Below, in pieces: positions 9,361 to 41,709 of a stretch of 64,000 nt of DNA (positions are counted from its first letter, which is position 1; each line of letters starts with the position of its first letter). The translations under genes and the position numbers were made by a program. The notes under the pieces were generated by a model. That model was not told where the DNA came from and did not search any database. It saw only the letters and a program-made list of their open reading frames with translations. The stretch is from Methylomarinovum tepidoasis (GTDB lineage Bacteria; Pseudomonadota; Gammaproteobacteria; Methylococcales; Methylothermaceae), in the NCBI RefSeq assembly GCF_030294985.1, contig NZ_AP024718.1:1565001-1629000 (forward strand), read 5' to 3'.

Positions 9361-10101
9361 TTGGACTGGTACGAGGGTTTCGTCCTCCGCCGCCGCCCCT
9401 GGCGGGAAACCAGCCTGTGGTTCGAAGCCTTCACGCGGGAGGCCGGCAAGGTGGCGCTGATCGCCCGGGGAGCGCGGCGCCGCAAGCGCGCCCCAATCGC
9501 CCTGGAACCGTTCCAGCCGCTGGCGCTGTGCTGGCGGGGACGGGGGGAGCTGGCCACCTTGACTGCCGCCGAAGCCGCCGCGCCGCCGCTGCGTCTCGGC
9601 GGGACTGCCCTGTACTGCGGTTTCTATCTCAACGAACTGATGAGCCGGCTGCTGGCGCGCGACGATCCCCATCCGGCGCTGTTCGATAGTTACCGGGAGA
9701 CTCTGAAAGCTTTGGCCGGTGGCGAGGTGGAGGGGCCGCTGCGCCGCTTCGAGCTGCGGCTGCTGCGGGAAATCGGCTACGCGCCGCTGCTTGACCATGA
9801 GGTAGAATATGCCCGCCCGGTGGTGGCCGAGGCCCGCTACCGCTATCTGCCCGATCGGGGGCCGGTGGCCGATCCGGCGGGCTGGCTGCAGGGCCGGACC
9901 CTGCTGGCCCTGGCGCGGGACGCGCTGGACGACGGGGAAGTCAGGCGCCAGGCGAAACGGCTGTTGCGTCTGCTGATCGACTACCGCCTGCAGGGTAGGC
10001 CGCTGAAAAGCCGCCAACTGTTCCAAACCATGGTGAAAAAGCGTCAACCATCCCTCCCTAAAGGGAGGGGCTTGCGGGAGAACCTGCAAGCCCGGGGTTG
10101 A
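9361..10101 (+). CDS. recO: DNA repair protein RecO with an element-derived C-terminal tail
   Basis: RecFOR-pathway mediator that loads RecA on SSB-coated DNA. The OB-fold N-terminus (DWYEGFVLRRRPWRETSL, KVALIARGARRRK) and C-terminal helices (LRRFELRLLREIGYAPLL, GRPLKSRQLFQTM) are clear. The start is TTG 9361, two bases after the era stop, where alignment to other RecO proteins begins. Unusually, the last about 21 residues after Val225 (KKRQPSLPKGRGLREN...) are encoded by the left part of the HEARO-like element starting at 10037, and the stop codon lies inside one of its stems. RecO normally ends near the KSRQLF motif, so the core should be functional, but the tail is foreign. Confidence 0.92.
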   Translation: MDWYEGFVLRRRPWRETSLWFEAFTREAGKVALIARGARRRKRAPIALEPFQPLALCWRGRGELATLTAAEAAAPPLRLGGTALYCGFYLNELMSRLLARDDPHPALFDSYRETLKALAGGEVEGPLRRFELRLLREIGYAPLLDHEVEYARPVVAEARYRYLPDRGPVADPAGWLQGRTLLALARDALDDGEVRRQAKRLLRLLIDYRLQGRPLKSRQLFQTMVKKRQPSLPKGRGLRENLQARG

Positions 10102-10419
10102 CCAGGGAAAGCCGTAACCAACCGGCTACGTTGCAGGTAAGGCCAAAAGACCCACCCTGGGATGCTTCCTCAGTCCCAGGCTCTGGAAGTCCCGGTTGCA
10201 GACAAGGGCCGGGTACCTGCGAAACGGACTGGGACAGCGGGCCGGCCTGCGACATTCCCGAAGGGAGACACCCTGAAATGGGTGCGTTACCAGGCCCGTA
10301 AGGGCAGAGCCGCAAGGCCCGGCCGGGTGGAAAGCCTGGCACCTATTTCGTGTGTAACAACTTGTACGGAGGCCGCGCTTTCCTCCTTCGCCTTCCGGCG
10401 GGGGAAACCTGCGCGGGAA
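10037..10419 (+). mobile_element. ORF-less HEARO/ISC-like element (IscB-family relic) between recO and pdxJ
   Basis: About 380 bp with no plausible gene, inserted immediately after GTGA (10033-10036), a target type reported for HEARO elements (ATGA or GTGA). The left half is a dense array of hairpins (see the ncRNA entry). The right end is a long imperfect hairpin whose outer arms are CCGCGC (10373-10378) and GCGCGG (10411-10416). This is the organisation I know for IscB-type transposons of the IS200/IS605 group: structured omegaRNA on the left, the nuclease gene, then a right-end hairpin; here the nuclease gene is absent. Removing 10037-10419 joins recO to pdxJ with an ATGA overlap. Family assignment is from memory of the fold and flanks, not a search; the exact right boundary is inferred. 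Confidence 0.6.
10041..10340 (+). ncRNA. Structured RNA candidate, HEARO (omegaRNA-like)
   Basis: Successive helices can be drawn: 10043-10049 with 10096-10102 closes a domain containing hairpins 10052-10069 (7-8 bp) and 10071-10090 (8 bp, loop AGAA); 10156-10162 pairs with 10174-10180; further short GC-rich stems follow up to about 10335. The purine-rich linkers and the overall plan resemble the HEARO RNA class that is equivalent to the guide omegaRNA of IscB nucleases. Without an IscB gene in the window any guide activity would depend on a nuclease encoded elsewhere. A covariance-model search (Rfam HEARO) would settle the identity. Confidence 0.55.
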
Positions 10420-20887: not shown

Positions 20888-20913
20888 AAAAAAAGACCCG
20901 CCGGAGGCGGGTC
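20888..20913 (-). terminator. Intrinsic terminator of the 31-codon micro-gene
   Basis: On the minus strand: an 8-bp stem (20913-20906 with 20902-20895), 3-nt loop, then seven T (20894-20888). It faces the groL terminator, so convergent transcription ends from both sides. Confidence 0.88.
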
Positions 20914-20968
20914 GAAAAGCGTCAAGTGCAAGAAGGAGGTTTAACGCTACTAGAGGAGGAGGAATCAA

Positions 20969-21064
20969 TCAGCGCTGCTGTCGGTAATGGTTGAGACAAA
21001 AACGGACCGTGAAGATGACCGTCGCGATCATGGTGGCGATCAGTACGAGTTCCAAGGGGGTCAT
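20969..21064 (-). CDS. 31-residue single-pass membrane micro-protein
   Basis: Not a family I recognise. The translation begins MTPLELVLIATMIATV, continues as one hydrophobic helix (residues about 4-20), and ends in a basic tail (HYRQQR). Support for expression: a Shine-Dalgarno GAGGGA 8 nt before the ATG, a promoter at 21103-21130 in the AT-rich region upstream, and a strong intrinsic terminator 55 nt after the stop. The gene is therefore a complete transcription unit, too small for ordinary gene finders. The 3' UTR between the stop and terminator contains two CU-rich, anti-Shine-Dalgarno-like stretches (see findings). Confidence 0.6.
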   Translation of the reverse strand: MTPLELVLIATMIATVIFTVRFCLNHYRQQR

Positions 21065-21102
21065 GGTTGCATTCCCTCATCAATCAATCGAATCTGATTC
21101 TA

Positions 21103-21130
21103 ATTATATGACTGGTTTTTTTATTTACAA
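21103..21130 (-). promoter_or_regulatory. Promoter of the micro-gene, inside an AT-rich spacer
   Basis: On the minus strand TTGTAA (21130-21125), 16-nt spacer, perfect TATAAT (21108-21103). The surrounding stretch 21090-21200 is the most AT-rich of the window and holds no other gene. Confidence 0.65.
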
Positions 21131-21220
21131 TATCCACATTCTGTTTATTTATACAACTTTTAGTTTCTAAATATAAAATAATTTTCATTCCGGTCTTCTG
21201 CCGTCTTACTCGTATCCGAA

Positions 21221-41597: not shown

Positions 41598-41709
<112 letters not shown>

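Follow-up and report, generated by a model that had tools for sequence, protein, structure and literature searches.

A conserved micro-protein gene of Methylococcales whose transcript carries a putative anti-Shine-Dalgarno RNA element at its 3' end

The window, the whole 64,000-nt stretch of DNA analysed here (G000:C1:1565001-1629000), lies within the 2.44-Mb genome of a methanotroph of the Methylothermaceae, order Methylococcales. Read from the sequence, a promoter, a Shine-Dalgarno sequence (SD), a 31-codon frame and a terminator follow one another on its minus strand (window 21130-20888), which raises the question of whether so small a unit is a gene and, if so, whether a peptide is all that it makes. 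The initial annotation had described it as a peptide transcription unit lying between groEL and a DUF99 gene. We located each of the four elements in that order on the minus strand (Table 1), and Pfam matched the two neighbours as Cpn60 and Endo_dU (PF01949, formerly DUF99). Transcription is predicted to start near 21096, which would give an RNA of ~209 nt.

Table 1. Features of the predicted transcription unit (window coordinates).
Feature	Position	Strand	Details and support
Degenerate copy of a GTTTC-N7-GAAAC-type dyad, possible operator	21161..21183	-	Intact dyad in related loci
Promoter, sigma-70-type, TTGTAA-16-TATAAT	21103..21130	-	-35 TTGTAA at 21130-21125, -10 TATAAT at 21108-21103, spacer 16 nt; 10/12 consensus; hexamers and spacing conserved in aligned relatives
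Shine-Dalgarno GAGGG	21074..21078	-	Sequence; purine stretch here in most relatives
31-codon frame, predicted single-pass membrane micro-protein	20969..21064	-	MTPLELVLIATMIATVIFTVRFCLNHYRQQR; ATG 21064, stop ends 20969; E, C and Y invariant in the A1 set
CU-rich anti-SD strand CCUCCUCCUC	20953..20962	-	CTCCTC in 9/9 genus UTRs
Hairpin, loop carries ACCUCCUU (20940-20933)	20918..20948	-	Predicted fold; 98.1% of cells paired
Intrinsic terminator with T7	20888..20913	-	GACCCGCC-TCC-GGCGGGTC at 20913-20895, T7 running to 20888; two compensatory pairs; 3' end of the mRNA and of the proposed sRNA

The purine stretch at the SD position is weak in some relatives, for example G006 and G004. Further upstream, a GTTTC-N7-GAAAC dyad lies ~100 nt 5' of the ATG in L052, L053, L054, L056, L059, L071, L078 and L079. 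Of 23 related upstream regions, eight have the pattern TTTC-N6-10-GAAA intact, against a mean of 0.46 in shuffled sequences, the dyad having been spotted by eye and then tested on those same sequences. Five of the nine genus loci are among them, with the dyad some 97 to 119 nt upstream of the ATG, and the copy in the window fails the strict pattern. This dyad is a possible operator.

The unit exceeds what chance would produce: in the 64 kb of the window, only one ATG frame of 25-45 codons combines SD-like purines with a 19-residue segment of hydropathy of at least 1.8, and it is this one. Residues 6-24 have a mean hydropathy of 2.34 and are followed by a basic tail, in agreement with the single transmembrane helix and basic tail proposed before. 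A search with the single peptide gave strong matches in 9 of 10 genomes of the genus, and a 12-row profile (A1) recovered the same nine (E 1e-20 to 1e-17). The tenth, G008, holds a paralogue only; there the unit is either absent or missing from the draft assembly. Across 311 genomes of the order, 48 had an A1 match at E <= 0.05, and the convincing ones were confined to two families, f1 (Methylothermaceae) and f4, which is probably Methylococcaceae. A second profile (A4), run on 274 genomes of the class, matched convincingly only G000 and G012, both within the order, with partial matches (E 0.004-0.01) in five other genomes. In two loci, L068 (G066) and L070 (G033), a ~520-codon frame without Pfam match has the peptide motif at its N-terminus.

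Codon comparisons point to selection on the protein. The dN/dS ratio was 0.136 for G005-G009, 0.031 for G007-G002 and 0.121 across six g4 genomes, and 0.97 for G000-G003, the last value resting on four differences only. Counted by codon position, variable columns were 20/8/26 (of 27) for the genus, and for g4 they were 3/2/12. Conservation of the frame above the nucleotide level in relatives, the check for which the initial annotation had called, is therefore borne out: nine of the ten genus genomes keep the frame, and dN/dS is 0.03-0.14 in three of four comparisons. Across 22 aligned members, E5, C23 and Y27 show at least 90% conservation; distant single-pass paralogues in two families of the order have E-L...C...Y in common, and paralogues such as that at G000:C1:1749400-1749486 (MSSVELVLTGSLLTTIAASVGYCWHHYRHLSARHR) share L8. 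The profile libraries scanned contained no Pfam or NCBIfam family matching the peptide, and no PDB family match was obtained; PDB matches to RAMP2 and to the succinate receptor were set aside as chance. Comparison of relatives thus shows the 5' half of the predicted transcript to be the mRNA of a putative membrane micro-protein under purifying selection, which adds to two Methylococcales families an uncharacterised micro-protein family unmatched in the scanned libraries.

The initial annotation had overlooked what lies behind the stop codon. Mean identity among aligned relatives, calculated without the two closest sequence pairs, was 0.844 in the 3' UTR, 0.657 in the frame, 0.439 in the leader and 0.375 downstream, so that the 3' UTR is the best-conserved part of the transcript. 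It contains, in order, CCUCCUCCUC, then AGCGUUAA, the ACCUCCUU loop and UUGACGCU, then the terminator, and the string TAGCGTT..ACCTCCT is invariant across nine sequences. The loop octamer ACCUCCUU is identical to the anti-SD core of 16S rRNA. Of the two helices, the terminator is paired in 100% of cells and the first hairpin in 98.1%; both compensatory pairs fall in the terminator, and the aligned genus UTRs hold none in the first hairpin. By this comparison the final ~74 nt are shown to be a conserved element, predicted to consist of a CU-rich strand, the ACCUCCUU hairpin and an intrinsic terminator. The tiny transcription unit proposed before is thus real and encodes a conserved single-pass micro-protein, but it is probably not merely a peptide gene, because its best-conserved part is this 3' anti-SD RNA element.

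Peptide and RNA element also occur together beyond the genus. TCCTCC or CTCCTC plus T6 was found within 150 nt of the stop at 23 of 49 family loci, which are phylogenetically non-independent, versus 2 of 214 control frames (open frames of at least 200 codons, some antisense). The 49 loci are the 50 A1 matches at E <= 6.3e-4 minus that of G008 (L031), which has no motif; the 23 span eight genus labels (g1, g4, g9, g15, g16, g23, g24 and g26). A model (R1) built solely from the nine genus UTRs scored next to the peptide gene in nine f4 genomes that had not contributed to its training (G012, G019, G024, G027, G042, G048, G057, G060 and G094). R1 alone is unspecific, with some match at E <= 1 in 167 of 311 genomes, many of them plain terminators. 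Many family members and paralogues are without the RNA element, and this coexistence of both forms makes it possible to study how an mRNA gains or loses an sRNA.

We consider it probable, by analogy of anatomy, that the ~209-nt transcript is a dual-function RNA: it would encode the micro-protein as an mRNA, and its 3' end, either as it stands or after processing, would be an anti-SD sRNA occluding purine-rich SDs. This reading is preferred because the anatomy matches that of sRNAs which occlude SDs. The 5' half would be translated into the membrane micro-protein kept by purifying selection, while the 3' ~74 nt, with CU-rich strand, ACCUCCUU hairpin and terminator, would act either within the full transcript or after cleavage, as a 75-80-nt sRNA held by Hfq, the gene for which is present in the genome. 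As the matching anatomy of studied sRNAs suggests, this element would pair with purine-rich SDs of other mRNAs, block ribosome binding and lower translation. In the last and weakest step, we infer that peptide and RNA could serve one response, the peptide acting within the membrane, where it might associate with a complex as a small partner. Two properties of coding sRNAs are found here: the codon analysis indicates protein-coding selection on the frame, and a separate RNA segment is conserved; as for base pairing in trans, complementarity to start regions is seen, and no more. Several observations count against the dual-function reading: scores against known sRNA families of Rfam fall far under the cut-offs, the first hairpin is without compensatory changes, the complementarity to pmoC (see below) shows no covariation in G004, dN/dS for G000-G003 is 0.97, and G008, at least in its draft assembly, is without the unit.

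The alternative that holds up best, though we judge it unlikely, is control in cis only: the CU-rich 3' UTR would fold onto its own SD and limit or time translation, and no trans-acting sRNA would exist. Such a fold-back of a 3' UTR on its own SD is the cis control of hok mRNA. Here, of 15 transcripts folded to minimum energy, eight, including that of the window, have the CU motif paired to the SD region and seven do not, so that the fold-back is not consistent. Moreover, conservation is poor in the leader (0.439) but almost complete in the CU motif, and a second CU motif sits in the loop of a hairpin of its own.

If the dual-function transcript acts in trans, start regions of other mRNAs would be its targets. 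All four pmoC copies found in G000 carry at their start AAGGAGGU, which complements the loop exactly over 8 nt; the start region of the Pfam-assigned pmoB carries GAGGAGGAAAU. We did not retain pmoC as a target: in G004 the loop is ACCUCCUG and both pmoC copies have GAGGAGGU, that is, no matching change. It is only a weak lead, because strong SDs resemble such sites anyway and G004 shows no such change. AAGGAGGT-N3-12-ATG was not enriched genome-wide (23 sites versus 21 in a reversed control), and four of the 23 are the G000 pmoC copies. GAGGAGGA is frequent before ATG (49 versus 6 in the control); as a target signal this abundance was rejected, since it simply reflects a favoured SD, and five of the loci read belong to a single repeated transposase-like gene. 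At least five such near-identical genes occur in G000 (L225, L237, L238, L249 and L250), with the SD GAGGAGGAAGTC before the ATG; these copies represent an insertion sequence that is active or was so recently. Among complements preceding a start, the longest one noticed was CAAGAAGGAGGU, at L200, which encodes a 134-residue protein without Pfam match. We find it doubtful that this is a methanotroph-specific family of dual-function RNAs whose two products, the micro-protein and the anti-SD sRNA, together control the membrane-bound machinery of methane oxidation, with the sRNA restraining translation of particulate methane monooxygenase (pmoC) and the peptide located in or near the same membranes. 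If the RNA does act on methane monooxygenase, it would constitute a post-transcriptional control point in methane oxidation.

It is quite improbable that the peptide alone matters, the 3' UTR then being a terminator region like any other. Such a view would accommodate the 26 of 49 family loci which have no motif plus T6, but not the fact that conservation is highest in the 3' UTR and that members under eight genus labels keep the motif. A chromosomal unit resembling type I toxin-antitoxin systems, in which RNA pairing restrains translation of a toxic hydrophobic peptide, is very improbable. The size, the single membrane segment and the predicted masking of the SD in 8 of 15 transcripts would fit; however, the gene occupies a single locus with stable neighbours genus-wide, E, C and Y are strongly conserved, and a consensus scan found no antisense promoter over the frame. 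The nearby promoter-like sites on the plus strand seen in that scan face away from the peptide gene. The converse of the peptide-only view, that the RNA alone matters and the frame is a chance or decaying one within a non-coding sRNA precursor, has a slim chance at best: the RF02278-like loci read (see below) do have sRNAs without such a frame, but purifying selection acts on the codons and family members without the RNA element exist.

Finally, the initial annotation had suggested a stress-linked function from the proximity of groEL. In the genus, the gene order is CopC-CopD, MlaC (on the opposite strand), Endo_dU and the peptide gene, Endo_dU being the usual neighbour (in seven of the eight genus relatives with a fetched locus, the exception being G009). 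In f4 the location differs, with ClpB and endonuclease V nearby in L041 and a rhodanese gene adjoining in L043. That the peptide gene is a stress-linked satellite of groEL has next to no probability, for although groEL adjoins it in the window and in G003, the loci fetched from the other seven of the eight relatives contain no groEL, the two genes are convergent with separate terminators, and the promoter is of the sigma-70 type, no heat-shock promoter being seen by eye at the locus. The unit appears from its surroundings to be autonomous, outside any groEL operon, because groEL is a neighbour only in G003 and the f4 gene is located elsewhere.

Other RNA elements were seen during this work. 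Outside the window, L181 (G000:C1:1530144-1530226, minus strand) is a second candidate sRNA of the anti-SD type, with TTACCTCC...TCCTCCTC followed by a hairpin and a terminator, relatives in L177, L178 and L179, a conserved upstream region (GAAACAA...GGGAACAAA), weak matches to anti-hemB and suhB/mmgR, and no small frame noticed. In family f8, L142 (G207) and L151 (G206) carry a hydrophobic frame of another kind (53 codons in L142 and, counted from the start chosen, 29 in L151), then GTACCTCCCTCGTTG and a terminator, perhaps an independent unit of peptide plus CU-rich RNA; RNA excerpts of truncated loci such as L137, L139 and L154, possibly misplaced, were left out. Within the window, a full-length HEARO RNA (RF02033, 118.6 bits) lies before pdxJ at 10043-10273 on the plus strand; the ORFs checked beside it (PdxJ, an Era-like GTPase, RNase III, GGDEF and an unmatched 220-residue frame) include no IsrB/IscB nuclease, and it is apparently an orphan copy. 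A bacterial small SRP RNA (RF00169, 76.8 bits) lies at 41607-41703, also on the plus strand.

How does the proposed dual-function transcript compare with known systems? SgrS/SgrT and AzuCR are dual-function sRNAs in which one RNA is both translated and base-pairing, as we propose here; unlike them, the present unit has a pairing region of the anti-SD type and another host group, and we know of no sequence relation to either. CcaF1 is a DUF1127 protein. In Rhodobacter CcaF1-CcsR, a small protein gene is followed by CU-rich sRNAs (CCUCCUCCC), a similar arrangement, but CcaF1 is described as a small RNA-binding protein, whereas the gene upstream of the element here encodes a predicted membrane helix without Pfam match and not a DUF1127 protein. 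Covariance matches to anti-hemB (RF02837, 23.6 versus 49.5 bits) and suhB/mmgR (RF00519, 13.6 versus 41 bits) were full-length but weak, and fall short of membership. In the alpha-r14 sRNAs (RF02344), anti-SD motifs lie in unpaired regions, as here, and NfeR1 silences ntrBC through them by SD occlusion (PMC10746234). These RNAs differ in having three hairpins, each with CCUCCUCCC, as against one CU strand and one loop; the RF02344 score was 19.6 against a cut-off of 58.8 bits, the three CCUCCUCCC hairpins are not found here, and the available part of the source describes no peptide (PMC10746234).

The closest likeness is to S17/bdhR1 (RF02278, the betaproteobacterial 'toxic small RNA'). Bordetella S17 is a 190-nt transcript with a putative 32-residue frame, from which RNase E-dependent processing yields an sRNA of 67 nt; its CU-rich 5' end and the first of its loops match, and face, translation starts (PMC11722255). 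The two share a sigma-70-type promoter, a length of ~190-209 nt, a frame of 31-32 codons, and a CU-rich strand, CU-rich loop and intrinsic terminator (PMC11722255). They differ in that the 5' end of the S17 sRNA lies inside the frame, whereas the CU motif here is 3' of the stop. Burkholderia members of RF02278 contain unpaired stretches rich in C and U, and their name refers to growth inhibition of E. coli (PMC4603805, PMC5688073). Over the full model our element scored 20.8 bits against a gathering cut-off of 50, below membership, with the family architecture of CU-rich 5' strand, CU-rich hairpin loop and terminator present.

Anti-SD sRNAs resembling RF02278 (with a CTCCTCCATCCTCCTTTGGTGG core) are widespread among the Gammaproteobacteria, with matches at E <= 0.001 in 82 of the 274 class genomes; only two exceeded the Rfam cut-off, and the family is, judging by these matches, broader than its Rfam name. 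Unlike the unit described here, they mostly stand alone. We read 29 of the 30 loci fetched (L097-L126; L106, whose excerpt was without the motif, was left out): none had a frame resembling the peptide, five had an SD-preceded frame of 20-70 codons ending near the motif, and many showed, by eye, promoter-like sequence directly 5' of the RNA. A literature search, mostly outside subscription journals, turned up no publication describing an RNA or a peptide of this kind in Methylococcales. What appears to be new here is the peptide family, the placement of the RNA element 3' of the stop codon and the gammaproteobacterial methanotroph hosts. All together, comparison makes the locus a clear example, from outside the Alpha- and Betaproteobacteria, of a peptide gene joined to a putative anti-SD RNA element.
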